Assembly: GCF_025353885.1 (NCBI RefSeq)
Contig: NZ_JANXNX010000068.1
Span: forward strand, 1 to 64,000
Reading direction: 5' to 3'
From: Sphingomonas sp.
GTDB taxonomy: Bacteria > Pseudomonadota > Alphaproteobacteria > Sphingomonadales > Sphingomonadaceae
Length of the DNA stretch: 64,000 nucleotides
Shown here: one piece after another, positions 62 to 51,687 of the stretch
Layout: each line of letters starts with the position of its first letter
Numbering within the stretch: position 1 is the first letter of the stretch
Notes under the pieces: generated by a model
Told to the model about the DNA's origin: nothing
The model's input: only the letters and a program-made list of their open reading frames with translations
Databases searched by the model: none
Translations under genes and position numbers: made by a program

Positions 62-1459
62 TTAAAATGCCACCCAAGTGAAGACGCGGACCGTATTGTT
101 ATCGGATGCGCTCCGACCGGTGCCATCATAGTCGAGCTTGGCACCATCAAAACGAGAATACGCAATATACTGAATGCCCACTCGTGTTGCGAAACGAGTA
201 CCGAATGGAGAGTTCGGCCCGCTGAAAGGGGTGCCATCGAGTTGGAGTAGCAGACCCGTGCTGTCTGGTCGGTCGATCCGATTGCCTGAATATAACGAGG
301 CGTTGCGTCGCCCTGTTATATCAAACGCACCGATCGTCGCGCCGATTTTGTTGCGCCAGTAATACGAAATGTCGCCGCGTACTTCATTTAGTGATCCGTC
401 AGCACACGTGCGCAGGGGTGTCGGCGAGATTGAACCGTCGGCGATGCCCAATGCACAGCTAGCAAGCAGCGACTGTCGTTCATGAGTATAGCGGGTGTTG
501 AACGTGATTGTATCGCTCGACCCGAACGTCCTGATGAACGACGCATCGAGGCCCACGTCTGAATAGTGGTTGGTGAGACCGGTGGTCCGGTCACGGCCTG
601 GTCGGATATTAGCCTTGAGGGCAAAGGCACCGATTTCGGCCGTCCCGCCTGCGAGCTCCTGGCTGAACGCGACGCGGGCATAGGGAGCGGTTCCCCTGAT
701 ATCGCCGGGACTGAACGGGTCAGCGCCGAGCCAACCAAGCGTACTCGCTCGCGGCGTCGAATAGCCGCCAACCTCAAGATAAATCTTTGAATCTATCCAG
801 GCATAGGCGTTGAGACCGATGACATTCTGCGCGAGGCCCCCTGAAATGAGCGGGCTTGCTGACGGCCCTGGTGCCAGAGCTGACCCTGTATAGGGGTAGC
901 CCCATGCCGGCAAAGTATTCCACGCATCGGTCACCGTTGGGTTATTGTTGAGGCTCAATCCGTAAACCAGATCCTTGCCGCCGATCGTTCCGGTGTTCAC
1001 CGCGCGGAGATCGAGGTTGTCCCACGAAAAGTGCTTGCCGATTCCGTCATAGGTCGTTTGTACAAAGCCGCCGAAGTGCGATCCGATTCCTCCGCCGACG
1101 AAAATGCTTACCTGGTCCAGCGCCAGATTGTTGTTATCAGCAAAACCATCAGCGGCAGGCGACGGCAGAGGGCGCTTGGTGCTGGTAAAGGAAGCAACCG
1201 CCATCGCGGATACGGGCAGGTTGAAAGGCTTGGTTCGCAGCGTATAACCACCAAGCTTGAACGCACGACCGAATGGGGTCAGTTGCGGGCCAAAACCGCC
1301 GACATGGCAAGCGACGCATCGTTGCCCAGTCTGCTCGGCGAATGCTGGGATGGCAGACGCTGGTGCGGTCCCCACACCGCTGGCTACGACCAAGGCCAGA
1401 ATTGAAGCTGCCCCGACCAAAGGCCAACGACCACGAAAAACACTGAGCGCGGTCGGCAT
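62..1459 (-). CDS. Outer-membrane barrel with N-terminal monoheme cytochrome c site
   Basis: The 465-residue product has an N-terminal signal sequence (hydrophobic stretch about residues 15-35), then one CxxCH heme motif (CVACH) near residue 48 followed by the segment FGPQLTPFGRAFKLGGY. The remaining ~400 residues are rich in alternating polar/aromatic segments with Gly, Asn and Tyr and end in Phe, as outer-membrane beta-barrels do. One heme in front of a porin is the layout of Cyc2-type porin cytochromes, but I cannot show homology to Cyc2 itself; databases usually name this family just cytochrome c. It lies 72 bp downstream of a HiPIP gene on the same strand, suggesting a two-gene electron-transfer operon. 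The ATG at 1459 is preceded by a GAGG-type ribosome site. Function inferred: electron transfer across or at the outer membrane. Confidence 0.72.
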   Translation of the reverse strand: MPTALSVFRGRWPLVGAASILALVVASGVGTAPASAIPAFAEQTGQRCVACHVGGFGPQLTPFGRAFKLGGYTLRTKPFNLPVSAMAVASFTSTKRPLPSPAADGFADNNNLALDQVSIFVGGGIGSHFGGFVQTTYDGIGKHFSWDNLDLRAVNTGTIGGKDLVYGLSLNNNPTVTDAWNTLPAWGYPYTGSALAPGPSASPLISGGLAQNVIGLNAYAWIDSKIYLEVGGYSTPRASTLGWLGADPFSPGDIRGTAPYARVAFSQELAGGTAEIGAFALKANIRPGRDRTTGLTNHYSDVGLDASFIRTFGSSDTITFNTRYTHERQSLLASCALGIADGSISPTPLRTCADGSLNEVRGDISYYWRNKIGATIGAFDITGRRNASLYSGNRIDRPDSTGLLLQLDGTPFSGPNSPFGTRFATRVGIQYIAYSRFDGAKLDYDGTGRSASDNNTVRVFTWVAF

Positions 1460-1531
1460 CAGTCTATCCTCAGGTTATGTGCGCGAAACTGAGAATCGAC
1501 GCCGCCGGTCAGTGGTGGGTTCGCCCTCATA

Positions 1532-1807
1532 TTACGCTTTTGCCGCGTAGATCGTGCACCAGCCCGACGGGCTGATCGTTCCGGTGACCACTTTGCACGC
1601 AGCAGGCGGCTGCCATTGAAGGCATCCATCGCAGCGCGACTTGCCGCTAGGTTTTGGTCGATAGTTAACCGCCTTTTGCGAAACCTTGGTCGACGCCTCG
1701 GCGGGAGCGAATGCAATGGTGCCAGCGGCGACTATTCCCCCACCAGCGGCAGCGAGCAGGATCATCTCACGGCGTGAAAGACGGGAGAAAGCTTTGTTCG
1801 TTGTCAT
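1532..1807 (-). CDS. High-potential iron-sulfur protein (HiPIP), Tat-exported
   Basis: This 91-residue protein begins with a twin-arginine type leader (SRREMILLAAAGG, residues 11-23). The mature part carries four cysteines at residues 59, 62, 71 and 84 in the order CDGC, AACKV and SGWCTIY, with a Tyr before the cluster; the ending ISPSGWC is typical of short HiPIPs. HiPIPs hold a [4Fe-4S] cluster cycling 3+/2+ and carry single electrons in the periplasm. It is the first gene of a probable operon with the cytochrome-barrel gene downstream, so it may be that protein's electron partner (inference). Folding before export through Tat fits a cluster-bearing protein. Confidence 0.85.
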   Translation of the reverse strand: MTTNKAFSRLSRREMILLAAAGGGIVAAGTIAFAPAEASTKVSQKAVNYRPKPSGKSRCDGCLQWQPPAACKVVTGTISPSGWCTIYAAKA

Positions 1808-2223: not shown

Positions 2224-2254
2224 GTTGCCCCCTAAAGGCGTGACAGAGCCTCGC
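2224..2254. repeat. Terminal inverted repeat of the IS2-group element (transposase 3-prime end)
   Basis: Aligned with the reverse complement of 3495-3526: both begin GT-x-GCCCCCTAAA and end GCCTCGC, with one single-base gap in the middle. Confidence 0.75.
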
Positions 2255-3482
2255 AGGTTTTCGCGATGAACTCGCGGGGTGATCGATAGCGCAAAGCGCG
2301 GTGCGGATGCACCTCGTTATAATGGGCGAACCAACCGGGCAGTTGATCGATGACGCTCTGCGCATTGGGCTTGGGGTTCACACGGACATAATCGCGTTTC
2401 AGGGTGCGCACGAACGCCTCCGCCATGCCATTCGATTGAGGACTGCTGACCGGGGGCGTGCGCGGGATCAGTCCAATGCCTCGGGCGAAGGCACGCGTAT
2501 CGCTGGCGGTGTAGCAGCTGCCGTTATCGGTGAGCCACTCGATGGGCTCGGGCACGCGATTCACCCGTCCGTAGCGATGCTCGACGGTGACGACCATCAA
2601 GTCCTGGACATCCTCGGCGGTGATGCCGCCCGTCGTCGCCACATGTCCCATCGCCTCGCGGTCGCAGCAGTCGAGCGCGAATGCGACACGCACCTTCTCA
2701 CCATTCTCGCAGGTGATCTCCAACCCGTCGGAGCACCAGCGAGTGTTGCGCAGATCGACGGCGACCTGGCCGTCGTGACGCCGTTCCTCGCGGCGTTCGC
2801 CGTCTCGCTGTAGCAGCAGCCCGTGCACTTTCATGACGCGGTAGACGCGTTTCGGATTGGGCGCTCCGCGCCCGGTCTTCTCGGCTTGTCGGCGCAGCAA
2901 AGCATGAACACGGCGATAGCCGTAGGTCGGCAAATCGGCGACGAGCACGCGGATCTCGGCGACCAGGTCGGCATCGGGCAGCGGCGGTCGTCCTCGCGGC
3001 CGCGGCGGAGGTCGATTACGTACCGCGGACAAGTGTGGGCGGGCGACCCCGATCGCTTCTGCGACCGCGCTCACCGTCCATCCCCTGGCAACGAGGTCGA
3101 GCGTAACAGCAGTTTTTTTTGGGCCTGCGACCCGGGACACGGCCTCGCGGAGCAGCTCATTCTCCATGGCCTTCTTGCCGAGTAGCCGGTGCAGTTCGCG
3201 CACCTGTGCTTCCAGGGCGCGATACTCGGACGCTGGCACCACTTCCTCACCAGCTGCTGCGGCAGTCAGTGCGCCCTGGTTCATCAGCCTGCGCCATGTG
3301 AAGACCTGGCTGCCGCTGATGCCGTGCTGGCGGGCGACGAGCGATACGCTCATCCCCGGCAAATACGTCTCCTCGACGATCCGGACCTTTTCCTCCGGTG
3401 TCCACCGCCTCCGCCGCTGAACACCGGAGAGGACCTCGCCATCATTGTAACGTCTGATCGTACTGTTAGTCATATCCCTCAC
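2232..3482 (-). CDS. IS3-family (IS2 group) transposase, OrfA and OrfB in one frame
   Basis: 416 residues. Residues 20-120 are an OrfA-like helix-turn-helix and leucine-zipper part ([35 protein letters not shown]). From about residue 130 comes the OrfB part with the DDE integrase core: D in [10 protein letters not shown] in [10 protein letters not shown] and E in [17 protein letters not shown]. In IS2 the two parts are in different frames and joined by a -1 shift on an A-rich site. Here they are continuous across a run of eight A (3113-3120, seen as T on the plus strand). The first start is GTG at 3482; an ATG at 3473 is the alternative. The transposase looks complete. Confidence 0.9.
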
Positions 3483-9989: not shown

Positions 9990-10380
9990 TGACATCCCCC
10001 TGTTTTTTAGTCCATTTTAAGCGAGAGTTTCCAGCCTTGTGAAGCCTTCGGCGAGGAGTTGGAAATGAAGAAATCTAGGTATACCGACGAGCAGATTGCG
10101 TTTGCGCTGAAGCAGGCGGAGACCGGGACGCCGGTGGCCGAAGTCATCCGGCGGATGGGAATTTCGGAGCAAACATTTTACCGTTGGAAGAAAGTGTATG
10201 GCGGTCTCGGCGTCGGCGAGCTGAGGCGTCTAAAGCAGCTCGAGGACGAGAATCGGCAGTTGAAGCAGTTGGTTGCCGATCTGAGCCTGGACAAGCACAT
10301 CCTGCAGGATGTCCTGTCAAAAAAGCTCTGACGCCTGGACGACGGCGCGAGCTCGTCGCGTACGTCCATGCCCGGCCGAG
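9990..10380 (+). mobile_element. Remnant of an IS3-family element (IS407-like group)
   Basis: Begins with TGACATCCCCCTGTTTTTTA, which looks like a terminal repeat. It then has the complete orfA and only the first few codons of orfB (KKALTPGRRRELVAYVH in the overlapping frame) before the similarity stops at about 10375. No right end was found, so the element is truncated and cannot move by itself. Confidence 0.7.
10065..10331 (+). CDS. IS3-family transposase OrfA
   Basis: 88 residues from ATG 10065 (a TTG two codons upstream overlaps the ribosome site). It holds the helix-turn-helix YTDEQIAFALKQAETGTPVA, the motif ISEQTFYRWKKVYGG and the leucine-zipper part LKQLEDENRQLKQLVADLSL, as in IS407-group OrfA proteins. 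OrfA binds element ends and is used with OrfB through a frameshift. Here OrfB is almost wholly missing, so the gene is a leftover, though its own frame is intact. Confidence 0.85.
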   Translation: MKKSRYTDEQIAFALKQAETGTPVAEVIRRMGISEQTFYRWKKVYGGLGVGELRRLKQLEDENRQLKQLVADLSLDKHILQDVLSKKL

Positions 10381-10539
10381 GTTAGCTCGGTCACCGAGGG
10401 GGAGTGAGACCAACTCGATATTCGTTGTTCTTGATCTCTTTTGGGATGCCGATGCGCATTTGGTTTGTTAGCTTCTGCTGAAGGTGCGATTGGAAAGAGC
10501 GCCGTTGCGCTAACGCTGCTAGTGACGCACCGCCTGCCC

Positions 10540-10982
10540 GGTCGAGAGCTTGCGGTAGTCAGCTTCCGCGAAACCTGCTCGGCCTGACCCATGACGCGGA
10601 GGACGTTCCCGCCGGTGAGCATTCCGACGTCTTGGTCCGTCCACCCCCGGCGCATCAACTCGGCGAGCAGGGCGAGGCAGCTGGAAACGTCTTCAAGGCC
10701 ATGCGGCAAGACGCTGCCAACCCCGTCGAAGTCCGATCCGATGCCAACTTGGTCTTTCCCAGCGACCTGCGCGATATGCTCGATGTGATCCGCGACCATC
10801 GACAGCGTTACGGGCGGCGGCGGGTTAGCCTTTTTCCAGGCTGCGACGGCGGCCGCTGCCCGGTCCGACTGGCCGATATACAGGCCGTTGAAGGGTGGGG
10901 AATTCATTTGTGACGTTTCGGTTGCCTCATCCGCGGCCCAGTGGCGATATGCATCGGAGATGTAGAATGAGGCAAAGTTCAA
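10540..10982 (-). pseudogene. Membrane dipeptidase (peptidase M19) C-terminal fragment
   Basis: About 145 residues match the C-terminal third of M19 dipeptidases: VADHIEHIAQVAGKDQVGIG then SDFDGV, followed by HGLEDVSSCLALLAELMRRG and GGNVLRVM. The N-terminal two thirds with the zinc-binding sites are absent, because the next gene upstream (dnaE2, end at 11040) lies immediately behind. After about 10540 the frame runs on into unrelated residues and the IS remnant. The fragment is squeezed between a broken IS and dnaE2, which suggests deletion at that junction. Confidence 0.75.
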
Positions 10983-11039: not shown

Positions 11040-14000
11040 TTAGTGGAAATCGTGGCTTTTGATCGGAATTAATTCGCCAGCGTTTCTGAAGTGATAATCG
11101 GACCGTACGTGTGGCCGCCATTCGAAATCGCCACGATCAGGGGCGCCGGGATAGGTGGCGCCATCGCCGCGTGAAACCAGCCGGGGCAGATCGATATCGC
11201 CAACGGTGCGCAGCATCGGGGTAAGGTCGGCGAGGTGGTCGACAATGACGTGTATCACGCTTGCTTCCCTCTGCACCCGGCCAGAGATCGAAAGCATGGC
11301 CGATCCCATCACGACGCGGCGATTGGCCTCGAAACGGTCGGGCCAGAGGATCGCGTTGGCGACGCCGGTTTCATCCTCCAGCGTGATAAAGAGAACGCCC
11401 TTAGCGCTGCCCGGACGCTGGCGGACCAAGATGATCCCCGCGAGTTCGATGCGGCGTCCATCCTTGGTGCGATCGAGATCGGCGCAGGTAATCATGCCGC
11501 GCCGGGCGAGTTCACCGCGAAGAAAAGTAAGTGGATGCGCGCGCAGGCTGAGCTGAGTGGCACGGTAATCCTCAACCACCTCGCGTCCGGCAGTGAGCGG
11601 AGCGAGCACCGGATCGGGCTCGATGGTTTCTAGCAGCGCGAGTAGCGGTGGCGGACGGTCGCCCAGCCCTTTGATTGCCCATAGCGCCGCGCGCCGGTCG
11701 AGCCCGAATGCCTGAAACGCATCGGCCTGCGCGAGCCTTTCGAGCGCCGCGGGTTTGACCCCCGATTGCCGCCAGATATCGCCGATACTGCTATAGGGGC
11801 GCGCTCCCCGCGCCAGCAGGATGCGGCCAACGTCATTTGCTGCCAGCCCAGTAACGACGCGCATCCCCAGCCGCAACGGGCGCAGCGGCGAGCCATCGGG
11901 AGCACGCGCCGCATTCGAATCGTTGAACGGCTCGATTATGGTGTCCCATTCGCTATTTAGCACACAGACCGGGCGTATCTCGACGCCGTGGGCGCGGGCA
12001 TCGCGCACGATCTGCGCGGGCGCGTAGAACCCCATCGGCTGGGCGTTAAGCAAAGCCGCGCAGAAAATGTCGGGATGGTGACACTTCAGCCATGACGAGG
12101 CATAGGCAATCTTGGCAAAACTGGCAGCGTGGCTTTCAGGGAAGCCGTAGCTGCCGAAACCCTCGATCTGTTTGACCAGCCGTTCAGCAAACTCCTCCTT
12201 AATGCCGTTTTTGCGCATGCCGCCGATCAGCCGGTCGCGAAAACCACCGACGCCGCCGGTCAGCTTGAAAGTCGCCATTGCCCGACGCAAGCTGTCGGCC
12301 TCGCTCGGCAGAAAGCCAGCACCGAGGATCGCGACCTGCATCGCTTGTTCCTGAAAGAGTGGCACGCCCAACGTCTTTTCGAGCACTTGTTTAAGCTTTG
12401 GGCTGGGATATTCGAAAATGGTGGCAGGATTGTTGCGGCGTTGCTCGCGACGCTTGAGATAGGGGTGGACCATGTCGCCCTGAATAGGTCCTGGGCGGAC
12501 GATCGCGACTTGAATGGCAATATCGTAGAAGTTTTCGGGGCGCATACGCGGCAGCATCGACATCTGCGCGCGACTCTCGATCTGAAAGACGCCCAGCGTA
12601 TCGGCGCGGCGCATCATTTCAAAAGTTGCCGCGTCCTCCTTCTGCAGGATGGGATCGGCCATTTCGATATCAATTTGCTTGTGGTGGCGGAGTAGATCGA
12701 AGGCACGGCGCATGCAGCCGAGCATGCCCAGTCCAAGAATATCGACTTTCATAAAGCCAAGTTCCTCGAGATCGAGCTTTTCCCATTCAATGACCTGGCG
12801 ATTGGCCATCGCCGCAGGCTCGATCGGAACGAGATCGGCAAGCTTGTCGCGCGTCAGCACGAAGCCGCCGGGATGCTGCGAAAGATGGCGCGGCGTGCCG
12901 ACCAAATCGCGCGCTAGTTCAAGCGCAAGCGCCAGCCGGGGCTCATCCTTGTCGAGGTTCAGTGCCTCAACATGTTCATCGGGCACCCCGTCGTTCGACC
13001 AGCCCCACACCTGCTTTGCCAATGCTGCGGTCATGTCTTCGGGAAGGCCCAGCACCTTGCCGACTTCGCGGATCGCGCCACGCGTGCGGAATCGGCTGAC
13101 GACTGCGGTCAGGGCAGAATGATCACGGCCATAGCTGTCGTAGATCCACTGGATCACTTCCTCGCGGCGTTCATGCTCGAAATCGATATCGATATCCGGC
13201 GGTTCGCGCCGGTCCTCAGACAGGAAACGCTCGAACAGGAGCTGGTGCTTGACTGGATCGATCGAAGTAATACCAAGCACGAAGCAAATTACCGAGTTGG
13301 CTGCCGAACCCCGCCCCTGGCAAAGGATCTGCTGGCTTCGTGCGAATTGCACGATCGAATTCACGGTTAGAAAATAGGCAGCATACTGCCAATGCCCGAC
13401 GAGCCTGAGTTCTTTGGTGAGCAATTTGCGATAGGCCGGGGTGGGGCGGTCGCCATGATTCATTTTATTGAGCGCCAGCCACGCCATCTTCTCGAGCGCC
13501 TTTTGCGGGGTGTGCCCGCTCATCACCCGTTCCTCGGGGTATTGATGCTTCAGTTCGCGCAGCGAAAAGGTGCAGCGTTCGACGATTGCCTGCCCGGCAG
13601 ACAGCGCCTCAGGGTGGTGACGAAACAACCGCGCCATTTGCCCAGGCGGCTGGAGGTGGCGCCCAGCGTTGCGTTCGCGGGCAAAGCCAAGTGCGTCGAT
13701 CGTGGTCTTTTCCCGAATTGCGGTGACCACGTCCTGGAGCATTCGCCGCGCCGGATCGTGATAGAGCACATCCCCGGTGGCGAGCGGCGTCAGCCCATGG
13801 GCCTGCGCGGCAAGCGCGGTTTCATGAAGCCTTTGCGCCTCTCCCGGCCGCCGCCAATGGGTCAGGCAAACATGACCGCGGCCCGGAAACAAATCTGCCA
13901 TCCAGCCGAGCTGGATCGGGTCGGGCATCGCATCAGGGACCAGCGCCGCGACCAGCCCTTGCGACTGAGCGGCGACATCTTCCCAGTGGAGAAAGCATTT

Positions 14001-14339
14001 GCCCTTTTCACCACGTTGGGTGTCGGCCCGGCCCTTGCCCAGACTGAGCAACTGCGTAAGTCGCGACCAGGCTTGCTTGTCCTCAGGCCAGACAAGAAGC
14101 GAACTGCCATCGACAAGATCAAGCCGGCAACCGAACACTGGCCTCATGACCAGTTGCTGTTCTTTTTCAATCTGCTCGGCAGCAAATAGCGCCTGCACCA
14201 CCCCCGCCACAGAATTCCGGTCGGTAATACCGAGCGCAGGCATGCCCATCATGGCCGCTATGACGAACAGTTCCTGAGGGCTCGATGCACCGCGCAGAAA
14301 GCTGAAATGGGTGGTGACCTGAAGTTCGCTGTAGGTCAT
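11040..14339 (-). CDS. dnaE2: Error-prone DNA polymerase DnaE2
   Basis: About 1099 residues, full length for DnaE2. An N-terminal PHP domain (HFSFLRGASSPQELFVIAAM) is followed by the polymerase III alpha-type catalytic region with PPDIDIDFEHERREEV, a helix-hairpin-helix region (VKPAALERLAQADAFQAFGL) and a C-terminal OB fold (IELAGIILVRQRPGSAKGV). The start is set at 14339 because its ATG overlaps the imuB stop as ATGA; an upstream in-frame GTG at 14363 is less likely. Acts with ImuA and ImuB in damage-induced mutagenic translesion synthesis. Third gene of the imuA-imuB-dnaE2 operon. Confidence 0.93.
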   Translation of the reverse strand: MTYSELQVTTHFSFLRGASSPQELFVIAAMMGMPALGITDRNSVAGVVQALFAAEQIEKEQQLVMRPVFGCRLDLVDGSSLLVWPEDKQAWSRLTQLLSLGKGRADTQRGEKGKCFLHWEDVAAQSQGLVAALVPDAMPDPIQLGWMADLFPGRGHVCLTHWRRPGEAQRLHETALAAQAHGLTPLATGDVLYHDPARRMLQDVVTAIREKTTIDALGFARERNAGRHLQPPGQMARLFRHHPEALSAGQAIVERCTFSLRELKHQYPEERVMSGHTPQKALEKMAWLALNKMNHGDRPTPAYRKLLTKELRLVGHWQYAAYFLTVNSIVQFARSQQILCQGRGSAANSVICFVLGITSIDPVKHQLLFERFLSEDRREPPDIDIDFEHERREEVIQWIYDSYGRDHSALTAVVSRFRTRGAIREVGKVLGLPEDMTAALAKQVWGWSNDGVPDEHVEALNLDKDEPRLALALELARDLVGTPRHLSQHPGGFVLTRDKLADLVPIEPAAMANRQVIEWEKLDLEELGFMKVDILGLGMLGCMRRAFDLLRHHKQIDIEMADPILQKEDAATFEMMRRADTLGVFQIESRAQMSMLPRMRPENFYDIAIQVAIVRPGPIQGDMVHPYLKRREQRRNNPATIFEYPSPKLKQVLEKTLGVPLFQEQAMQVAILGAGFLPSEADSLRRAMATFKLTGGVGGFRDRLIGGMRKNGIKEEFAERLVKQIEGFGSYGFPESHAASFAKIAYASSWLKCHHPDIFCAALLNAQPMGFYAPAQIVRDARAHGVEIRPVCVLNSEWDTIIEPFNDSNAARAPDGSPLRPLRLGMRVVTGLAANDVGRILLARGARPYSSIGDIWRQSGVKPAALERLAQADAFQAFGLDRRAALWAIKGLGDRPPPLLALLETIEPDPVLAPLTAGREVVEDYRATQLSLRAHPLTFLRGELARRGMITCADLDRTKDGRRIELAGIILVRQRPGSAKGVLFITLEDETGVANAILWPDRFEANRRVVMGSAMLSISGRVQREASVIHVIVDHLADLTPMLRTVGDIDLPRLVSRGDGATYPGAPDRGDFEWRPHVRSDYHFRNAGELIPIKSHDFH

Positions 14340-16396
14340 CCAAAGCGGCCATGGAGGTACCATGTAAGGTCGCCGGTCTGGCCGCGTTCGCCATCCCCTC
14401 GACGAAACAGCCAGAAACGTTGCCCCGCAGCATCCTCGACCAGGAAATAATCGCGCACCGCGTCACGCTCGGCTGAATTCTTCCACCATTCGCCGGTAAT
14501 GCGTTCGGGGCCGTCGGCACGGACGACAACGTGGCTATTACCACGCCAGGTAAAACGCTGCGGTGGTTGATCGGGTAATTCTGCAATGACATGATCCAGC
14601 CGCTCGGGCCGACGCAGGACGCGGGTAGGCCGCGGCCAGCGCGATTGCCAGGGATGTTCGATCACGCGCCTGTCGAGCTGCCGCACGTCGTCGCGCTTGT
14701 TTGCCTGCTGCTGACGGTTAGCAGCATCGAGGATCGGTCGTCGCCCTACGCTGCGTTCTGGAACATCACTTTCCAGCGGAATTTCGCGCCAGGTCGGCAC
14801 CGAACGATTGGCAAGGATATCAACCAAGCTGCCAAGATCTGGCGCCGTGCTGTCCAGGGTTTCGTCGAACGGCTGTGCGCCCAACGGCTCAGCGCGTCTG
14901 ACATGGAGGTGCAAGGCATCGACACCGTAACCGGGGTCGATTTCCTCGATCCTCCGGCAGATCAGGCGCAAAATATGCGTCGGATCGCGATTTGGCCGGG
15001 CAAAGCCGATACGGATCGGTTGCGGCTGGCCATCGATCCGGTCGGCGACAAAAAATAGAAGGCGAGCGCCCTGTCCCGCTTGGGCCAGCGCCTCGCATAA
15101 TTGCGGAACCAGTTTGGCAAGCCAATGCTTGATGACCTCCGCCGATCCGATCGGCTCTGCAAAGCGCTGAACGACATGGATAGTTTCGGGCGGTATTACT
15201 GGAACCAGCGGTTCTGCGGCGTGGCCCAGCGCTTGGTCGAGACGCCGCGCAGCCTCTGCCCCAAAACGGCGGGCAAATGGCGCGCGCGGCAAGGCCGCAA
15301 CATCGCCAATAGTTTCGATGCCCAGCCGCTGGAACAGCGCAAGGGTTGGCTCGGGAAGGCGAAGCGCCGCGGTCGGCAACCGCACCAGTGCATTGGCGTG
15401 GGTGCCCGGCGGGCAATGCAAAATCGGATCGGCCACAAACCGCGCCAATGCCCAAGCCGCGCCGGGTGTATCGGCAATGCCGATCCGCGCTGAAAAGCCT
15501 GTTCGCGCCAGCAATCGAAACAGCCTAGAGGCCATGCGCGCCTCACCACCATAAAGGTGCGCCACTCCCGTCAGGTCGAGGAAAAGCGCGTCGCTATCTG
15601 ATTTTGCGACTATCGGCGTCCAGCGGCGGGCGATCAGCACCGCCAGCCGATGCAAATCGGCGGCATCGCCCGATGGATCGGCATTGCGGAGGATCGCTTC
15701 AGGAACCGAGGCGCGGACCTGAGTAAGCCGCATACCCGGCACCAGCCCCAAGGCCTGCGCCGCGGGTGATACCGCAGCAACCTCAATCCGGGACCCTATT
15801 CTGTGAGTGGTGACGAGGACCACGCCTCCAACGGGTATGGTCGGGGTTTGTTCGTCGCGGCAAACCTGACTGATCAGACCGGACATTGTCCGGCCCGTAT
15901 CGTAAAACGCTGCAACCCCTGGCGGCCCGCTATGCGGATCGTTCGAGCCCCGCTCAAGATGCTTGTCTGGCCGTTGGCCTTCGCCGGGATAGCGCACGCT
16001 TGGCACTGCGGTGCGACGAAACGGGTGTTCAGCGCCCTCCGTCAGGCGTGACATCTTTTGCATCGGCGCTGCCCCTTCATCGAGCAGCATCGTTGTGAAC
16101 GGATGATCGGCAGCTTCACTTGACCGGCCGAGCATTTGCATCGACGGCCGTTTATGATGTGGCAGTGCGGCGATCTGCATTTCAATGTTCTGGCGCGCCC
16201 AGCGTGCACCAGGTCGCCAGCCGGTATTTTTGGGCGCGTCGCATTGCAGCACCTGTTCGGCCAGAGCCGTAGTACGCAGGTCGCTCAAATTAGGACTAGC
16301 GACACAGCGTTCAGGCAGCGGCGCGAACGTCGGCTCGGCGTGCAAAATCCGATCGATCGACCAGTTCGACAGCCAGAGCGCAGCGACCCGTTTCAT
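14336..16396 (-). CDS. imuB: ImuB, inactive Y-family polymerase homolog
   Basis: 686 residues. It opens with ALWLSNWSIDRI, where active Y-family polymerases have catalytic acidic residues, as expected for ImuB. The palm/finger core resumes at ~175 (GSRIEVAAVSPAAQALGLVP, DSDALFLDLTGVAHLYGGEA) and little-finger and C-terminal parts follow (HVVQRFAEPIGSAEVIKHWL, ending WYLHGRFG). Residues ~60-170 are an extra polar segment, making the protein longer than the usual ~500. ImuB recruits DnaE2 to the beta clamp. The start lies inside imuA (86-bp overlap) and the stop overlaps dnaE2 by 4 bp, so translation is tightly coupled. Confidence 0.9.
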   Translation of the reverse strand: MKRVAALWLSNWSIDRILHAEPTFAPLPERCVASPNLSDLRTTALAEQVLQCDAPKNTGWRPGARWARQNIEMQIAALPHHKRPSMQMLGRSSEAADHPFTTMLLDEGAAPMQKMSRLTEGAEHPFRRTAVPSVRYPGEGQRPDKHLERGSNDPHSGPPGVAAFYDTGRTMSGLISQVCRDEQTPTIPVGGVVLVTTHRIGSRIEVAAVSPAAQALGLVPGMRLTQVRASVPEAILRNADPSGDAADLHRLAVLIARRWTPIVAKSDSDALFLDLTGVAHLYGGEARMASRLFRLLARTGFSARIGIADTPGAAWALARFVADPILHCPPGTHANALVRLPTAALRLPEPTLALFQRLGIETIGDVAALPRAPFARRFGAEAARRLDQALGHAAEPLVPVIPPETIHVVQRFAEPIGSAEVIKHWLAKLVPQLCEALAQAGQGARLLFFVADRIDGQPQPIRIGFARPNRDPTHILRLICRRIEEIDPGYGVDALHLHVRRAEPLGAQPFDETLDSTAPDLGSLVDILANRSVPTWREIPLESDVPERSVGRRPILDAANRQQQANKRDDVRQLDRRVIEHPWQSRWPRPTRVLRRPERLDHVIAELPDQPPQRFTWRGNSHVVVRADGPERITGEWWKNSAERDAVRDYFLVEDAAGQRFWLFRRGDGERGQTGDLTWYLHGRFG

Positions 16397-36556: not shown

Positions 36557-36853
36557 ATGAAGCGCGGCAGGGTGTACTTCGCCTTGTTATTAGCGGGTGC
36601 CCCTGCCGTTGCTGCCCCGCCACCGCTCAATGGCGACACCGGAATGCCAAACATTTCGGCGCTCTGGATTGAGGTATGGCGATGGAGTTGGTCAAGATTG
36701 TGCGCGATGGCCCGTGTGCGCAGAGGTTCGCTGACGGCGGCATTTGCCCGTTGCCGACCCGGCCATCGAAACGCAGCTGAGAGGGGAGTTGTCCAGTCGG
36801 TGCAAGTCGAGGGCATTGGCATCGTTGCAAACACCGTCACTGACAAACACTGA
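36557..36853 (+). pseudogene. Truncated third member of the GDPSAPDISGVW family
   Basis: Starts one base after the DUF6152 stop. The first ~40 residues are a signal peptide (YFALLLAGAPAVAAPPPL) followed by GDTGMPNISALWI, which lines up with GDPSAPDISGVWI of copies at 35376 and 51688. The rest is Arg-rich and unrelated, and the body of the family is missing. Looks like a deletion remnant that still lies in the operon. Confidence 0.45.
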
Positions 36854-36926
36854 TAACCGTTGCCGCAACCCGTGCGGAACCGTTGATCGTTTGACGCAGA
36901 CATTCACGACTGGAAGCGCGATTGTC

Positions 36927-37679
36927 ATGAACCGAATGCGTAATCTCTGGCTGACAGGCGTCGCGGCGGCGATCGCGATTGCCGCCGTTGCCGCTAGCCA
37001 AGCGAGCAACCGCGCCGGCCGCGACGCGCTGATGCGTGCGGACCCCGAGCGTAGTCTCGCCGATCCCCGGCTCGCACCGGTTGCTCTTCGCATCGGTCGG
37101 ACGCAGTTTGCAGACCATTGCGCATCATGTCACCAGGACGGTCGGCCCGACCGTGGGCGCGGTGTTCCCGACCTCACCGATGGCGAGCACCTTTATGGCA
37201 CAGGCAGCGTCGCCGAAATCGAGCAGATTGTGCTTTACGGCATTCGATCGGGCAGCCCGCGTGGCTGGAACCTGGCAGCGATGCCCGCCTATGCGAGCGC
37301 CAAGCCGTCGGCTAGCGAGCCGGTTCCGGCTATGACTCCGCGGGCGATTGCCGACGTTACTCAGTATCTGATGCAGCGCCGAGGCAACCCGGCCGACGCA
37401 CCGGCTGCCGGACGCGGTGCAATTCTGTTTGCGGGCAGCGGTGGCTGCTGGGATTGTCACGCCGCCGACGGTGGCGGAAATGACGCGATCGGCGCTCCAA
37501 GCCTCATCGATGACGTCTGGCTCTATGGCGATGGCTCGGCGGCGAGCATTGCGCGGTCGATCGCCTACGGGCGTCATGGTTTCAGTCCGGCCTTCAAATC
37601 GAAGCTGTCGCCGGTGGAAGCGCGCGCGGTCGCGGTATATGTCGCGTCGCTGTCCCAACCGCAAAGGATTGCCCGATGA
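36927..37679 (+). CDS. CcoP-like diheme cytochrome c
   Basis: 250 residues from MNRMRNLWLTGVAAA, a signal or membrane anchor. Two CxxCH sites at 65-69 (CASCH) and 174-178 (CWDCH) lie in domains typical of CcoP of cbb3 oxidase (GVPDLTDGEHLYGTG, APSLIDDVWLYGDG). The first heme has Met119 (AAMPAY) as a likely axial ligand, but the second domain reads GRHGFSPAF where CcoP has GRxGxMPAW, so its Met is replaced by Ser. No ccoN/ccoO is present. Overlaps the chaperone gene by 4 bp. Likely a periplasmic electron carrier. Confidence 0.82.
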   Translation: MNRMRNLWLTGVAAAIAIAAVAASQASNRAGRDALMRADPERSLADPRLAPVALRIGRTQFADHCASCHQDGRPDRGRGVPDLTDGEHLYGTGSVAEIEQIVLYGIRSGSPRGWNLAAMPAYASAKPSASEPVPAMTPRAIADVTQYLMQRRGNPADAPAAGRGAILFAGSGGCWDCHAADGGGNDAIGAPSLIDDVWLYGDGSAASIARSIAYGRHGFSPAFKSKLSPVEARAVAVYVASLSQPQRIAR

Positions 37680-38581
37680 GCGTTATCGACGGCGCCCCCG
37701 CCAATGCTTGGGCATTAAGCGAACCGAGCGCACGACGCTCGCTGATACTCTGCGGAATCGGCGCGCTTTTTGGCCTCGCGATTGCCGGACTTGGGCTGTT
37801 TACCGCCCATGGCACACGCACCAGTGGAGTCGCCGCGGAAAACGTCGCGACGGTCAATCAAGTACCAATTCTAATGAGCGATTTCATTCAGCAGCTTCGC
37901 GCGGTCGACGATGTTTCGCTGGCGGAGGCGACACGACCACAAAAGCAGAAGGTCCTTGCTGACATGATCCGCGAAGAACTTTATGTTCAACGCGGCATCG
38001 AGCTCGGCATGCAAGCCGATACGATCGAAGTGCGAGCCGCCCTGACCGGATCGGTAGAGGCGCAGAGCGCTTCCGATGCAACGATGGCACAGCCGAGCGA
38101 AGCTGAGCTGCGCTCTTGGTACGACAGCCATAGCAACGACTTTGCCGACGAAGGCAGGCTTGCCCTCGCCGATTACGTCTTGCCGGCCACATCTACGCCA
38201 GCCCGGATAGCAGCTGCGCGAAACGCACTGATCGCGGCGCGCGGCAACGAAGCAATCGAAGGCCGCGCCTCAACTAGATCGTCACTGATGACACAGGGCG
38301 AGGAGTTTTATTTCGCCGCGCGCATCCATCTCGGCGACCGGCTCTTTGCTGCAGCGCGAGCGATGAAACCGGGCGCAGTTTCGGTGCCGATCATATTGCC
38401 CGATGGCATTCACCTCATCGTTGTCCGTAGCAATGTCCAACCTGTGCCGCCGCCCTTTGAAAAAGTCCGCGACCGGGTGCTCAGCGCGCTGGTCGCAGCG
38501 CAGACCAAATTGCTCACCGCAGCCAACGAACGCTTCCTGCACAAGCGCGCCGACATCCAGGTCGCGAGAGGCTTCGAATGA
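37676..38581 (+). CDS. Membrane-anchored periplasmic peptidyl-prolyl isomerase (SurA/parvulin type)
   Basis: 301 residues. Membrane anchor ~23-46 (SLILCGIGALFGLAIAGLGL), SurA-like chaperone helices (QKQKVLADMIREELYVQRGI) and a C-terminal rotamase region (HLGDRLFAAARAMKPGAVSV, DGIHLIVVRSNV). It would help fold exported proteins of the operon. Starts by ATGA overlap with the cytochrome gene and its end overlaps the HupE-type gene by 4 bp. Confidence 0.8.
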   Translation: MSVIDGAPANAWALSEPSARRSLILCGIGALFGLAIAGLGLFTAHGTRTSGVAAENVATVNQVPILMSDFIQQLRAVDDVSLAEATRPQKQKVLADMIREELYVQRGIELGMQADTIEVRAALTGSVEAQSASDATMAQPSEAELRSWYDSHSNDFADEGRLALADYVLPATSTPARIAAARNALIAARGNEAIEGRASTRSSLMTQGEEFYFAARIHLGDRLFAAARAMKPGAVSVPIILPDGIHLIVVRSNVQPVPPPFEKVRDRVLSALVAAQTKLLTAANERFLHKRADIQVARGFE

Positions 38582-39768
38582 TACGCGTGCTGCTGACGAT
38601 CGTGCTGCTCGCTTGGGCGGCACCCGCGTTCGCGCACACGCGCAGCCAGTCACACAGTACATGGACGATTGACGGGCCCAACGTCCGCATGAGCTTCAGC
38701 GTCGCCGACACCGAGACGATTAGGATCACGCCCGCCGGGCTTCGGCCCGACAACGCCGCGTTCCTTGCTTATTTGACGCCGCGCCTTGGCGCGACGGCAT
38801 CGGGTGTCCCCTGCAAACTGATCGGGGAGCCGCACATGCTCGCAGCAGCCGCCGGGTTCCGTCGTGCCGAATTGCAGTTCCTCTGTTCTTCCGGCAACAG
38901 ATTGCGGCTGATCGACATCGCCTTCTTCGATGCCATTCCGACGCACATCAACTTTGCCCAGGTGCAACGCCCCGATGGCGATTTCATCGAACAACTAATC
39001 ACCGCCGACGACCAAGGTCTCGACCTCGCCGATGCCGATGGCAATGGACTGGCCACCGCCAGCTTCATCCGCTTTGTCGGCATGGGTGTCATGCACATCT
39101 TCACCGGCATCGATCACATCTCTTTCCTAGTCGGGCTGGTGCTGATTTCGCGACGCACGAAAGACCTCGTCTTCGTCATAACCGGTTTCACGCTTGGTCA
39201 TAGCCTTACGCTCGCACTTGCAGTCACCGGGATCATCCGTCCGCATGCCGAGTTTATCGACGCGCTTGTAGCGCTGACTATAGCGTTGATCGGTGCCGAA
39301 AACGTGGGACTGGCATCCAAACGCCCTGGCACGGTGGCGCTCTTTACCGGGCTCGCGCTCGCCGTGATGGCGGGGCTGCGCTTGGCGGGCATCGGCCTCC
39401 TGCCGCCACTCCTGTTGATCGGAGCAGCAATATTTTCGGTCAACTACTTGTTGATTTCGGGGTATCTGCGCGACGCTGGGCGGCTCCGCCTGGTCGTGAC
39501 GCTCGTCTTTGGGTTGATCCACGGCTTCGGTTTTGCCGCCGATCTACTTGAAAGTCGCTTGCCGACCGAAAAGCTCGCAGAGATTCTCGTAGGATTTAAC
39601 GTCGGCGTGGAGGCCGGCCAGTTGAGCGTCGTGCTGGTGTTGATCGGCTTGGTGGCAGTATTGCGCCGCTACGGGCTTGCACTGCCGCGCCCGCTTGTCG
39701 TTGATTTTGCCGCCGCAGCGCTGGTCGGGGTCGGTACCTATTGGTTCGTCGGGCGCAGCTTCGCCTGA
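38578..39768 (+). CDS. HupE/UreJ family membrane protein with periplasmic domain
   Basis: 396 residues. Signal peptide (to FAHT), a ~150-residue periplasmic domain and a membrane region with the HupE/UreJ motif GMGVMHIFTGIDHISFLVGL and TGFTLGHSLTLALAVTG, six or so helices and LVFGLIHGFGFAADL. HupE proteins are linked to nickel or cobalt uptake, but many relatives lie beside cytochromes and chaperones with unknown role. Last gene of the operon; overlaps the converging MarR gene by 31 bp. Confidence 0.85.
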   Translation: MIRVLLTIVLLAWAAPAFAHTRSQSHSTWTIDGPNVRMSFSVADTETIRITPAGLRPDNAAFLAYLTPRLGATASGVPCKLIGEPHMLAAAAGFRRAELQFLCSSGNRLRLIDIAFFDAIPTHINFAQVQRPDGDFIEQLITADDQGLDLADADGNGLATASFIRFVGMGVMHIFTGIDHISFLVGLVLISRRTKDLVFVITGFTLGHSLTLALAVTGIIRPHAEFIDALVALTIALIGAENVGLASKRPGTVALFTGLALAVMAGLRLAGIGLLPPLLLIGAAIFSVNYLLISGYLRDAGRLRLVVTLVFGLIHGFGFAADLLESRLPTEKLAEILVGFNVGVEAGQLSVVLVLIGLVAVLRRYGLALPRPLVVDFAAAALVGVGTYWFVGRSFA

Positions 39769-46232: not shown

Positions 46233-47626
46233 TGACATTGGATAGGCAGGCGCCAGTGACGATCGATCTCGACACCCTGGTCGATGGGCGGCCCGTACAG
46301 GTGTCCACTATACTGTTGATTGTCATAGCGGCGCTCGCGCTCATCAGCGACGGTTTCGATTTAGCAGCCATGGGCTATATCGCGCCCGAGTTGTCGAAGG
46401 AATGGCATCTCGCACAGGGTGCCTTGGTTCCTGCATTCTCTGCCGGCATTATCGGAATGATGATCGGTGGCCCGCTGCTCGGCTATCTTGGCGACAGATA
46501 TGGGCGAAAGCGCATAATTGTGCTCGGTCTGACCGTTATCGGCCTCACCACGCTGGTCACGATGGGGGCGACTTCGGTCACGCATTTCGTCGTGCTACGC
46601 TTTATAACAGGCGTGGGGCTTGGCGGCGTCATTCCTAACGTCGTCGCACTGGTCGCTGAATTGACCCCGCGCCGGACGCGGGGACGACTGATCGTATTGA
46701 TCACCCTTGGCATCGTTCTGGGGATTGCGCTTCCAGGCTTGCTCGGGGCCGCGTTGGTCCCCCTTTATGGATGGCGGGTTCTTCTCGTCATTGGGGGAGT
46801 TCTGCCACTCGCAATCGCGTTGATTTCTGTTTTCGTGCTACCCGAAAGTATCAAATACCTTCTGGTCCGTGGCGATCGCAACGATCGTGTTCGAGAGCTT
46901 GCTCGTCTGCTCCGACCCGATCTCGCTATTGATCCCGACGCCCGCATCACGATCGCCGCGACCGTGCCGTCGACATCGCGCGGATCGACTTCGGCGTTGT
47001 TTGCTGGACCATTTGCGCTGATCACGCCGTTGCTTTGGATCTGCCAGGCAGCCAACCAGATGGCCAATTTCTTCTCGCTCACGTGGCTGCCGACGTTGCT
47101 GCAATCGAGCGGGGCGACAACGGCGCAAGCAAGTACAATCGCGGCCCAGTTTTCGCTTGGAGGGTTTTTGGGGGGCATCGTCATGATGTTCATCATTGAC
47201 CGGCTTGGCGTTGTGCCACTGGTCATACTTTTTGCGCTTGGCTGCCCGCTGGTTGCAGCGATGGTTTTGCCCGGCTTGTCTCCGGTCATGCACGCGCTGG
47301 TGATAGCGGGTGCGGGTTTCTGCGTCGTGGGCGTGCAATGTGGCATGACGGGCCTTCTCGGCGTCCTTTATCCAACCCCAATCCGCTCGCTCGGCACAGG
47401 CTGGACGCAGTCCGCAGGCCGTCTTGGGGCACTTGCCGCTCCGGTGGTGGGTGGGATTTTGCTCGGCATGAATTTGCCCGCCCAGGAACTCACTCTCGCG
47501 CCCGCTTCGTTACTCGCTGTCGGTGCAGTTGCCAGCGCAGCGCTCGCCTGGGCGTGCTGGCGCCATTTCGGGGGCGTTCATGTGAGCGAAGTCATTGTCT
47601 CCCCAATCGAAGGACATCGTGCGTGA
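46232..47626 (+). CDS. MFS transporter, aromatic acid:H+ symporter (AAHS) type
   Basis: 464 residues from ATG 46232, overlapping the receptor stop. Twelve membrane helices. The first helix has ALISDGFDLAAMGYIAP, the DGFD motif needed in PcaK-type carriers, and the loop 2-3 motif GYLGDRYGRKR is present. AAHS members import aromatic acids with protons. Its stop overlaps the next gene's GTG by 4 bp. Confidence 0.9.
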   Translation: MTLDRQAPVTIDLDTLVDGRPVQVSTILLIVIAALALISDGFDLAAMGYIAPELSKEWHLAQGALVPAFSAGIIGMMIGGPLLGYLGDRYGRKRIIVLGLTVIGLTTLVTMGATSVTHFVVLRFITGVGLGGVIPNVVALVAELTPRRTRGRLIVLITLGIVLGIALPGLLGAALVPLYGWRVLLVIGGVLPLAIALISVFVLPESIKYLLVRGDRNDRVRELARLLRPDLAIDPDARITIAATVPSTSRGSTSALFAGPFALITPLLWICQAANQMANFFSLTWLPTLLQSSGATTAQASTIAAQFSLGGFLGGIVMMFIIDRLGVVPLVILFALGCPLVAAMVLPGLSPVMHALVIAGAGFCVVGVQCGMTGLLGVLYPTPIRSLGTGWTQSAGRLGALAAPVVGGILLGMNLPAQELTLAPASLLAVGAVASAALAWACWRHFGGVHVSEVIVSPIEGHRA

Positions 47627-48540
47627 TCAAATCTCTTCTCATTGGCGGCCTGCTTGCGACGTCGAGTGTGGCGATCGCTCAGGAGCGGCCGGGCCCGCCG
47701 CAAGTGCTCATGGTCAAGCCGCTCCGTGGCGGGGCCTATTGGATCGAGGGGGGGCGCGCCAACACCGGCTTCATCGTCGGTAAAACGAGCGTAATCGTCA
47801 TCGACGCCGAGATGAGCCCCGATATGGTCAAGCAAGAGCTGGCGGCAATCGCTAAACTCACTGACAAACCGATTTCCACAATTATCGTCACGCACGCCGA
47901 TCCAGATCACGTCGCGGGCGTTCCGCTCTATCCGGCGGCCGCGCGGCTGATCGAACACGAGAACACCTGGAGCGAAGTGGTTGCGTCATCAAACGATCCG
48001 ACCGGGGGACCACTGACTAGCGTGTACAAGCGAGTGGTTACCCACAAACCATCCCACACGATCGCCGGAAATGAGACGGTCACCCTAGATGGCGTCAGAA
48101 TACAGCTTATCCATATCGCCCCCGCGCACACCAGCGGCGACTTGATTGTCTATCTTCCGGCTCAAAAGATTGTCTACGCGGGTGACGTTGTAACGACCAA
48201 CCTCGGGCGATTCCCTGTCATTCATTTCGGGGGCTCTTCGCTTGGCTGGATCGCCACAATGAAGGCGATGCTCGCCCTTGACGCTACGACTTATGTTGGG
48301 GGCCACGGCAGCCTGGAGACAAAGGCGCAGCTTGAAGCGCGCGTTCATGATGCCGAGGAACGACGTGCGGCGGTCAAAACCATGGTTGAGCAAGGCAAGT
48401 CACTCAGCGACGTAGAGACTGCGTTGCCCGAACCCGGTGCCAACCCAATGTTTTTCAGTTTCACTCGGACCGTCTTTGACGAGCTGACGAAGGGCTATCC
48501 GCCAGCGAGCCCGCCTTGGACCAACATCGTCAAACATTAG
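47623..48540 (+). CDS. Periplasmic metallo-beta-lactamase-fold hydrolase with altered metal motif
   Basis: 305 residues from GTG 47623 (overlaps the MFS stop as GTGA). A signal peptide ends at AIAQ. The fold shows GFIVGKTSVIVIDAEMSPDM, the metal motif THADPDH at 90-96, a later AHTSGDL, AGDVV and VGGHGS. The usual motif is HxHxDH; here position 93 is Asp instead of the second His. Substrate unknown; could be an ester, lactone or thioester in the periplasm. Confidence 0.83.
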   Translation: MIKSLLIGGLLATSSVAIAQERPGPPQVLMVKPLRGGAYWIEGGRANTGFIVGKTSVIVIDAEMSPDMVKQELAAIAKLTDKPISTIIVTHADPDHVAGVPLYPAAARLIEHENTWSEVVASSNDPTGGPLTSVYKRVVTHKPSHTIAGNETVTLDGVRIQLIHIAPAHTSGDLIVYLPAQKIVYAGDVVTTNLGRFPVIHFGGSSLGWIATMKAMLALDATTYVGGHGSLETKAQLEARVHDAEERRAAVKTMVEQGKSLSDVETALPEPGANPMFFSFTRTVFDELTKGYPPASPPWTNIVKH

Positions 48541-48566
48541 AGTAATTGTCAGTCAGGAGAATTCCC

Positions 48567-49205
48567 GTGCTTTCGACCCGCCTCATCCTCGCAGCCGCAA
48601 CTTTATCCATTGTCGTTCCCGTTATTGCGCAGACGTCGACGCCGGCCCCTGCCCCTGCCGGTCCTCCCGGTGCACCGGATGCCAGCCGCGTTGTTGCAGG
48701 CAGCTACAAAGTGGACGTCAACCACACGCAAGTGGTTTGGACCCTAGACCATCTCGGTATTACTCCATTGACAGGTGCGTTTGGCGCAAGCAGCGGCACG
48801 CTCGAGATCGATCCCTCGAAATTATCGGCCGCGAAGGTCAACGTCACCTTTAATATTGCCGACATCGCAACAACGTCAAAAGGCTTTACTGAGCATTTGC
48901 TCAAAGCCGATCTGTTCGATGTGGCGAAATTCACGAACGCTAGTTTTACATCGACCGCGGTTGTGACCAACGGAACGTCGGCCCGCGTGTCAGGCAATCT
49001 CACGATCAAAGGGATTACCAAACCGGTAACGCTCGACATGAAATTCTACGGCGCGGGTGCGAACCCATTGAGCAAGAAGTTGCAGGTTGGATTCTCCGGT
49101 ACCGCGACAATTCAGCGCAGCGACTTTGGCCTCGGTTATTCGGTCCCGCGGGTCGGGGATGCAGTGATGCTGAGCCTCGTCGGCGCGTTTGAAAAAATAG
49201 GCTAA
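48567..49205 (+). CDS. YceI family periplasmic protein
   Basis: 212 residues from GTG 48567 behind CAGGAGA; signal peptide ends at VIAQ. The YceI lipocalin-like barrel begins VVAGSYKVDVNHTQVVWTLD and includes LLKADLFDVAKFTNASFTST and LTIKGITKPVTLDMKFYGAG. YceI proteins bind isoprenoid quinone-type lipids. The next gene carries another YceI domain fused to cytochrome b561. Confidence 0.88.
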   Translation: MLSTRLILAAATLSIVVPVIAQTSTPAPAPAGPPGAPDASRVVAGSYKVDVNHTQVVWTLDHLGITPLTGAFGASSGTLEIDPSKLSAAKVNVTFNIADIATTSKGFTEHLLKADLFDVAKFTNASFTSTAVVTNGTSARVSGNLTIKGITKPVTLDMKFYGAGANPLSKKLQVGFSGTATIQRSDFGLGYSVPRVGDAVMLSLVGAFEKIG

Positions 49206-49233
49206 TAAGGCTGCTCAGGCCACTGGAGCATTT

Positions 49234-50556: not shown

Positions 50557-50674
50557 CTTTGGGTATCGCCTGCAGCCAGGGGGCATCTTAAATCGGTCGC
50601 CATGCACCTTAGGATCGCGGTCAGAAATATAACGATCATCGGCTTGATGACGAAAACAGGATTGGAGCGACAGG

Positions 50675-51178
50675 GTGTCCACGATGGCCACTATCAGCGA
50701 ATGGCTCGCGGCGACATCGGTCAGCGTAGCGGTCTCCGGCGCGCCGTGGGTGATACCCACCGTGCAAAGCATCCATATTCTTGCGATCGCGATCGTTCTT
50801 TCGTCCGTCGCAATGCTCGATTTGCGCCTCGCAGGGTTTATCGGACACGAACGCCCGGCGCGCAGCACCGCACTTCGCACCTATCCATGGATATGGTGGG
50901 CACTCATCGTGCTAGTGACCACCGGCTTGATCATGATCATGGGCGAGCCTGAACGCGAGCTTCGCAATTGGATTTTCTGGACGAAGATGACACTGATTGT
51001 TGCTGCGGTCGTCGTCACGATGCCGGTCCAACATATGCTAGATGAGCGTCCTTATCGCGACCACGCTCGTGCACAGCGTCTTAAAATCAGAGGCTTAGCG
51101 CTTCTCTCCTTGGTATTCTGGGTGCTCGTCGTCGTGTGCGGCCGCTGGATTGCTTATGCGGGAGAGAACTCGCTGTGA
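50675..51178 (+). CDS. DUF6644 family membrane protein (first copy)
   Basis: 167 residues from GTG 50675, placed 8 bp after GGAG. TISEWLAATSVSVAVSGAPW followed by four membrane segments, including HILAIAIVLSSVAMLDLRLA and WALIVLVTTGLIMIMGEP, typical of DUF6644. Function unknown. Overlaps the second copy by 4 bp. Confidence 0.75.
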   Translation: MSTMATISEWLAATSVSVAVSGAPWVIPTVQSIHILAIAIVLSSVAMLDLRLAGFIGHERPARSTALRTYPWIWWALIVLVTTGLIMIMGEPERELRNWIFWTKMTLIVAAVVVTMPVQHMLDERPYRDHARAQRLKIRGLALLSLVFWVLVVVCGRWIAYAGENSL

Positions 51179-51663: not shown

Positions 51664-51687
51664 CGATGTGCAATAGAGGAGCCTGAG

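Follow-up and report, generated by a model that had tools for sequence, protein, structure and literature searches.

Cyc2 is a fused cytochrome-porin, in which an N-terminal monoheme cytochrome is joined to a 16-strand porin (Keffer et al. 2021, PMC8406198). According to the same paper, the motif AXPXFAR[Q/K][T/Y] before CXXCH is unique to Cyc2, and PXL stands after CXXCH. The gene pair described here, from a Sphingomonas genome, encodes a HiPIP and a putative member of this family, and it resembles the pairs with which iron oxidisers import extracellular electrons. As in the described members (A. ferrooxidans Cyc2, M. ferrooxydans Cyc2PV-1, and Leptospirillum Cyt572), the porin cytochrome has a signal peptide, an N-terminal CxxCH, PxL, and a predicted 16-strand porin in a chain of more than 365 amino acids, whereas it has Glu instead of the signature Arg. 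In Bradyrhizobium, the Cyc2 gene is clustered with a HiPIP gene and three cytochrome c genes (He et al. 2017, PMC5566968, citing Percak-Dennett 2017). The present locus likewise has cyc2 beside a HiPIP gene in an alphaproteobacterium, but no cytochrome c gene is visible beside the pair, whose downstream side is truncated at the contig edge. On the HiPIP side, PioC of R. palustris TIE-1 is also the HiPIP partner of an outer-membrane porin-cytochrome system; it works, however, with decaheme PioA, the porin PioB, and the reaction centre, whereas the present genome gave no PioB-family or reaction-centre match. The other close relative is Iro, an iron oxidase represented by the NCBIfam model NF041615, of which the present HiPIP is not an equivalog by that model.

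Reports of Cyc2 homologs already cover heterotrophic bacteria from acid mine drainage and several orders of proteobacteria (PMC10654088), as well as bacteria for which no extracellular electron transfer is known (PMC6344600). What HiPIP does is described as unresolved for acidithiobacilli (PMC10715153) and as unknown for Ferrovum JA12 (PMC4725956). Among the papers listed in our literature searches, none dealt with a Cyc2-HiPIP pair in Sphingomonadaceae or Caulobacteraceae. The HiPIP-Cyc2 pairing itself is already known; the points of interest are that a signature residue has changed across a whole clade and that the carrier seems to be exchangeable. With the present locus, a Sphingomonadales lineage without RuBisCO or reaction-centre matches joins the carriers of Cyc2-type proteins, and a simple two-protein system becomes available for asking which soluble protein accepts the electrons of Cyc2.

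The window, i.e., the whole stretch of DNA that was analysed (64,000 nucleotides), starts at the first base of a contig of 80,669 bases. Read on the minus strand, the HiPIP gene (1532-1807, 91 amino acids) is followed by 72 bases (1460-1531) between its stop and the start of the cyc2-like gene (62-1459, 465 amino acids), and both frames are intact. An AGGA, read by eye as a ribosome-binding site, precedes the ATG of the porin cytochrome, and a simple scan indicated no terminator-like site between the two genes, which are probably cotranscribed. A simple scan that covered one promoter type detected no sigma-70-like promoter before the HiPIP gene. The GC3 values of the pair (0.61 and 0.62) fall within the range of 0.56-0.74 spanned by the 28 other long frames of the window. 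An IS3-family (IS2-like) transposase gene, assigned by Pfam and NCBIfam, lies at 2232-3482 on the minus strand, 425 bases upstream of the HiPIP start; it is not part of the pair, and could affect the promoter of the pair. Downstream of the porin cytochrome, 61 bases remain in the contig. A cytochrome c gene overlapping the end of cyc2, as found in relatives, was sought there and rejected; the matching frame starts with TTG, stops after 24 residues, and has no CxxCH.

The porin cytochrome begins with a Sec-like leader ending in PASA (read by eye), followed by the heme segment AIPAFAEQTGQRCVACHVGGFGPQLTPFGRAFK, and its C-terminus is RVFTWVAF. The heme c attachment site CVACH (residues 48-52; 1304-1318, minus strand) is the only CxxCH in the 465 residues and stands in the N-terminal position after the signal peptide, as expected for Cyc2. 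The preliminary description of this DNA, in which a Tat-exported HiPIP is followed by a protein with one CxxCH and a terminal Phe, was thus confirmed by the open frames, the leader, the four Cys residues of the HiPIP, and the single CxxCH. Database models were uninformative about the porin cytochrome: no Pfam family matched it at E <= 1, NCBIfam gave one unrelated family (E = 0.18), and PDB sequences gave two unrelated matches to the single sequence (E values of 0.6 and 0.71) and no match to the profile A4.

Homologs were found by sequence comparison, and 43 of them, including the window protein, were aligned. The window protein aligned over its full or nearly full length with 38 of the 42 other sequences, with identities of 27-61%, and over the N-terminus only with the remaining four; the latter matches include sequences with AIPAFARQT. 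A Caballeronia protein (L021) showed 37.6% identity over 439 columns and carries the canonical ALPAFARQT motif, and its gene is flanked by an annotated HiPIP gene and a c-type cytochrome gene. Since the homology to strict-motif proteins extends over the full length, we count the window protein among the Cyc2 homologs, although it departs from the strict motif. Membership in the Cyc2 family of fused cytochrome-porins is accordingly supported by the sequence comparison and the structure model, in agreement with the Cyc2-type architecture that had been proposed; the published signature is present except for Arg. In a family sample of 149 genomes, relatives of cyc2 occurred in five, including the window's own, and in a sample across the phylum they occurred in 89 of 398 genomes, many by the N-terminus alone. 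Relatives were also found on 14 genome contigs (Caulobacteraceae, Caulobacterales, Phenylobacterium, Sphingomonadaceae, Alphaproteobacteria, and Ferrovum) and in nine plasmid records; plasmid NZ_CP081849.1 of Polymorphobacter megasporae is among the carriers of a match, and this cultured relative has the locus with cytochrome c.

The signature stretch of the window protein is AIPAFAEQT (residues 36-44; 1328-1354, minus strand), which agrees with the published motif at every fixed position except that Glu42 replaces Arg; the strict motif is therefore absent. Downstream of the heme site, the segment P58-x-L ... G-R-x-F-K68 (1256-1288, minus strand) contains the expected PXL in the form of PQL, its Pro being kept in 43/43 and its Leu in 42/43 sequences. 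Across the alignment, the Ala, Pro, Gln, and Thr of the motif, the Cys and His residues of CxxCH, and the downstream Pro, Gly, Phe, and Lys were invariant (43/43). Fifteen sequences have the strict motif, seven keep Arg with another change, and 21 lack Arg, which is replaced by Glu, Val, Ile, Ala, Met, or Gln; this Arg-less share is a biased rate, because Arg-less sequences predominated among the seeds of the profile A4. The 43 sequences are those left after removal of L004 and L026 (with L020 and L025 kept as their stand-ins), the partial L012, L015, and L017, and the short L079; matches of the phylum sample without extended sequence were also outside this set.

A tree was built from the alignment without the motif columns, with warnings of a long branch for L081 and of odd composition for L080 and L060. 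The Arg-less sequences fell into a 13-member clade with the window protein (support 100/99), a 7-member clade (100/100), and one single sequence. The presence or absence of Arg requires three changes on this tree, of which the well-supported branches force only one. The 7-member clade includes four loci of metagenome-assembled genomes (MAGs) labelled Ferrovum. Of all His, Met, Lys, and Cys positions, only those of CxxCH and Lys68 (mature position 34, in GRxFK) reached a conservation of at least 85% in the 43 sequences, Lys68 being present in 43/43. No conserved Met or second His was present across the 43 sequences; a His at mature position 94 was kept in 12 of the 13 members of the window's clade. 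These close Arg-less homologs of Cyc2 would be missed by a screen restricted to PXFAR[Q/K][T/Y], like that behind the 2021 data set.

A barrel-like remainder had been proposed for the protein behind the heme site. Indeed, the structure model contained 16 strands (mean pLDDT 70.1, pTM 0.77), as counted without two short strands in the low-confidence N-terminus and with an input of 14 sequences, two of which were partial. The heme segment was modelled at pLDDT < 50 (residues 1-29), and the model is without heme. Foldseek gave 174 matches at E <= 0.001, and the 50 listed were all outer-membrane proteins, designs derived from them, or an entry containing one. A second structural alignment of 50 entries likewise consisted of porins, OmpF-based designs, or an entry with OmpC in it. 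The top match was Omp35 (Z 21.6, rmsd 3.5 over 295 residues), and the best solved matches were of the OmpF/OmpC type. OprO, the porin to which Keffer et al. likened Cyc2 (PMC8406198), was also among the Foldseek matches (4rjw, E = 4.4e-6). A 16-strand outer-membrane porin barrel is thus predicted by the model, as described for Cyc2. The alternative candidate of a soluble periplasmic cytochrome was dropped on account of this predicted barrel.

The HiPIP carries a leader judged by eye to be of the twin-arginine type (SRREMILLAA), and its four Cys residues (Cys59, 62, 71, and 84) form a CxxC..C..C pattern, in the order of HiPIP cluster ligands; these Cys residues and the twin Arg were invariant in all ten aligned HiPIPs, i.e., that of the window and nine from other cyc2 loci. 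The best solved relative was PioC (PDB 6xyv, E = 1.3e-11), aligned with residues 40-91 of the HiPIP. The best NCBIfam match was Feoxidase_Iro (NF041615, E = 4.7e-16), which aligned over profile positions 9-88 of 90. The score was 58.9 bits against a cut-off of 100; hence, the Iro-like character that had been suggested stands as a resemblance and not as an assignment to the curated Iro family. Six other cyc2-linked HiPIPs scanned with NF041615 scored 43.4-66.1 bits, likewise below the cut-off. With the Pfam model HIPIP (PF01355), the window HiPIP scored 18.7 bits (cut-off 22), the one linked relative that was scanned (L010) scored 18.1 bits, and a profile search of the window's genome gave no match. 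Because PioC matches at 1.3e-11 despite the score below the cut-off, HiPIPs of this short type seem to be poorly captured by the Pfam model, and we assigned the 91-residue protein to the short HiPIPs resembling PioC and Iro. Its structure model, obtained from four input sequences, was poor (mean pLDDT 49.6, pTM 0.28).

Next to cyc2 in the relatives, a HiPIP gene was found within 2.5 kb in at least eight of the 43 loci (the window, L006, L010, L011, L021, L061, L065, and L066), a lower bound since several loci end closer to cyc2 than 2.5 kb. The HiPIP gene lies downstream of cyc2 in L011 and on the opposite strand in L061, and L065 and L066 are near copies from related genomes. In the latter two, two tandem HiPIP genes stand directly before cyc2. 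The label of HiPIP linkage requires seven changes on the tree, and the adjacency of cyc2 and HiPIP recurs in other lineages. At other loci, cyc2 has a monoheme or diheme cytochrome c or, in the 7-member clade, a cupredoxin beside it, and some show none of these carriers; the cupredoxin and CxxCH tags were crude patterns that include ghost frames, and among those scanned Pfam confirmed five cupredoxins, three monoheme cytochromes, and one diheme cytochrome. The cytochrome of L057 was recovered as a homolog in a separate search. In the four MAG contigs labelled Ferrovum (L013, L014, L018, and L019), a long chemotaxis-like frame (methyl-accepting, read by eye) precedes cyc2 and one or two small cupredoxin-like frames follow it, one each in L014 and L018 being confirmed by Pfam.

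Within the 13-member clade of the window, four loci have HiPIP and eight have cytochrome c instead, and six of these eight cytochrome c genes start inside the last 16 bases of cyc2. The contrast between HiPIP and cytochrome c gave a Fisher p of 0.002, a value that treats related loci as independent, omits L016 (upstream side cut), includes the near copies L009 and L057, and judges the window on its 61 downstream bases. Since the loci of the clade carry HiPIP in some cases and cytochrome c in others, the comparison suggests that the periplasmic carriers are exchangeable in this clade. The exclusion is not general, because L021 and L061 each combine a HiPIP with a CxxCH protein; in L011, a cupredoxin is present in addition to the HiPIP.

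At the genome level, the profile A5, which was built from cyc2-linked HiPIPs, was applied to 22 cyc2-bearing genomes. It detected 12 HiPIP genes in nine of them, and six of the 12, in four genomes, adjoin cyc2, these six being among the sequences from which the profile was built. No HiPIP was detected with A5 in the same-genus relative G090 or in three other cyc2-bearing genomes of the family; because G090 is without a match, the Cyc2-HiPIP pairing is not constant even between members of one genus. Among up to 35 candidates scored per genome, the HiPIP type of the window was found in one of the 149 family genomes, namely the window's own, where no second HiPIP was detected.

The genome containing the window was estimated to be 98.2% complete. 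It gave two COX1 matches and two other cytochrome c-type matches, the latter on other contigs. No match was found in it for the RuBisCO large chain or for an MtrB/PioB-type porin, and none for the photosynthetic reaction centre either in it or in the same-genus relative. Because COX1 is present and the RuBisCO, reaction-centre, and MtrB/PioB matches are absent, we describe the host as a respiring organism without the RuBisCO route and without reaction-centre photosynthesis, which is consistent with the heterotrophic host assumed in the preliminary description. In the five family genomes checked, a reaction-centre match was found in two, two weak MtrB/PioB matches below the cut-off in two, and a RuBisCO large-chain match in one (G111, which has the cytochrome c version of the locus); the RuBisCO family search also matches the B. 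subtilis control, so that a match alone does not mean carbon fixation. A photosynthetic role for the HiPIP was dropped in the absence of a reaction-centre match in the window's genome or the same-genus relative, and so was the identification of the barrel as an MtrB/PioB-type porin, for which the window's genome gave no match.

Taken together, the family membership, the predicted barrel, the single heme site, the linkage to HiPIP, and the oxidase genes suggest that the pair is an outer-membrane electron inlet, whatever its donor or benefit, and we give this reading a probability of roughly 0.68; so defined, it overlaps with the detoxification and different-donor alternatives discussed below. 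In such an inlet, the 465-residue protein would be exported, with one heme c attached at CVACH, and its porin part would adopt the 16-strand fold in the outer membrane, plugged from the periplasmic side by the heme segment. The heme would be reduced by a small donor that enters the pore in reduced form, most likely Fe(II). The Tat-exported HiPIP would then accept the electron, probably directly from the heme, cross the periplasm, and deliver it inward to a haem-copper oxidase, either directly or via a soluble cytochrome c. Fe(II) is our best guess for the donor, being the one with the most support for the Cyc2 family. Cyc2PV-1 was reduced by Fe(II) and had a potential of +208 mV (Keffer et al., PMC8406198), and an Em of 450 mV at pH 9 is given for PioC (PMC10879576); since the latter value is higher than the former, the step from Cyc2 to HiPIP would be downhill if the proteins of the window are similar to these two. 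Because the searches for RuBisCO and a reaction centre gave no match, supplementary energy or iron detoxification is a more likely benefit than autotrophy. The Glu at the position of the signature Arg, the low-confidence model of the heme segment, the lack of a Met or second His conserved across the 43 sequences, the HiPIP scores below the cut-offs, the poor HiPIP model, and the lack of conservation of the pairing within the genus count against an inlet, and Keffer et al. caution against firm functional claims for proteins distant from the characterised Cyc2 (PMC8406198).

The same path might serve metal detoxification or redox homeostasis, in which Fe(II) or another reduced metal would be kept oxidised outside the cell or in the pore without energy gain. 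We consider this rather improbable, although it is the best placed of the alternatives. The genome without RuBisCO and reaction-centre matches would suit such a role, and the R. palustris HiPIP Rpal_4085 supplies no electrons to the reaction centre and apparently takes part in a response to divalent metals (PMC10304953). On the other hand, the two COX1 matches make energy use possible, and the recurrent soluble electron carriers near cyc2 fit a respiratory path as well or better.

The missing Arg raises a further alternative, i.e., a Cyc2-derived inlet with a different donor, such as Mn(II), phenolics, or humic hydroquinones, in which the loss of Arg marks a change of substrate. Arg is absent in all 13 members of the window's clade, in all seven of the separate clade, and in 21 of the 43 sequences overall, which would suit such a change; the 7-member clade, however, holds the four Ferrovum-labelled MAG loci, and Ferrovaceae MAGs have been reported with Cyc2-like proteins of cluster 2, assigned to Fe(II) oxidation (PMC13390463), which may be those of the Ferrovum-labelled loci. 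A changed donor is unlikely in our view. As a separate and tentative reading, the Arg-less Cyc2 clade may be a modular inlet, in which the same barrel is served by a swapped carrier (HiPIP, monoheme cytochrome c or, in another Arg-less clade, cupredoxin), in alphaproteobacteria including non-phototrophs without RuBisCO, and in which the lost Arg tunes the heme potential or the donor.

Electrons might also flow outward, with the pair reducing Fe(III), humic substances, or another acceptor outside the cell. Cyc2 and Cyc1 isoforms of acidithiobacilli have been described as a path of ferric iron reduction (PMC10715153), and He et al. left extracellular electron transfer other than Fe(II) oxidation possible for Cyc2 in bacteria that are not known to oxidise iron (PMC5566968). 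HiPIPs are, however, high-potential proteins (500 to 50 mV; PMC7462912) and would be poor reductants of Fe(III) minerals at neutral pH, and the window's genome gave no match to an MtrB/PioB-type porin; we regard the outward direction as quite improbable. Least probable is a silent or decaying remnant of a transferred cassette that is not expressed, for which the IS3-family transposase gene 425 bases upstream, the lack of a promoter-like site before the HiPIP gene, and the patchy occurrence (5/149) could be cited, against the intact frames, the preserved leaders, heme site, and Cys ligands, GC3 values within the range of the window, and a promoter scan that covered one promoter type only.

Elsewhere in the window, a diheme c-type cytochrome gene (PF13442, PF00034) is immediately followed by genes for a PPIC-type PPIase and a HupE/UreJ-like protein (36744-39768, plus strand); the pairing of the cytochrome and the PPIase is reminiscent of clusters of the MofB/MofC type. 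Genes for a metallo-beta-lactamase-fold protein, YceI, a cytochrome b561-YceI fusion, a DUF6644 protein, and a sulfatase-modifying-factor-like protein are located at 47338-53504 (plus strand). At 11040-16396 (minus strand), genes for a DNA polymerase III alpha-type enzyme and for an ImuB-like Y-family polymerase stand in a row, an arrangement that we take to resemble SOS mutagenesis cassettes. Furthermore, a short transposase-like frame (read by eye) at 10059-10982 overlaps the end of an apparent dipeptidase-like frame on the opposite strand, perhaps as a result of an IS insertion into the dipeptidase-like gene.
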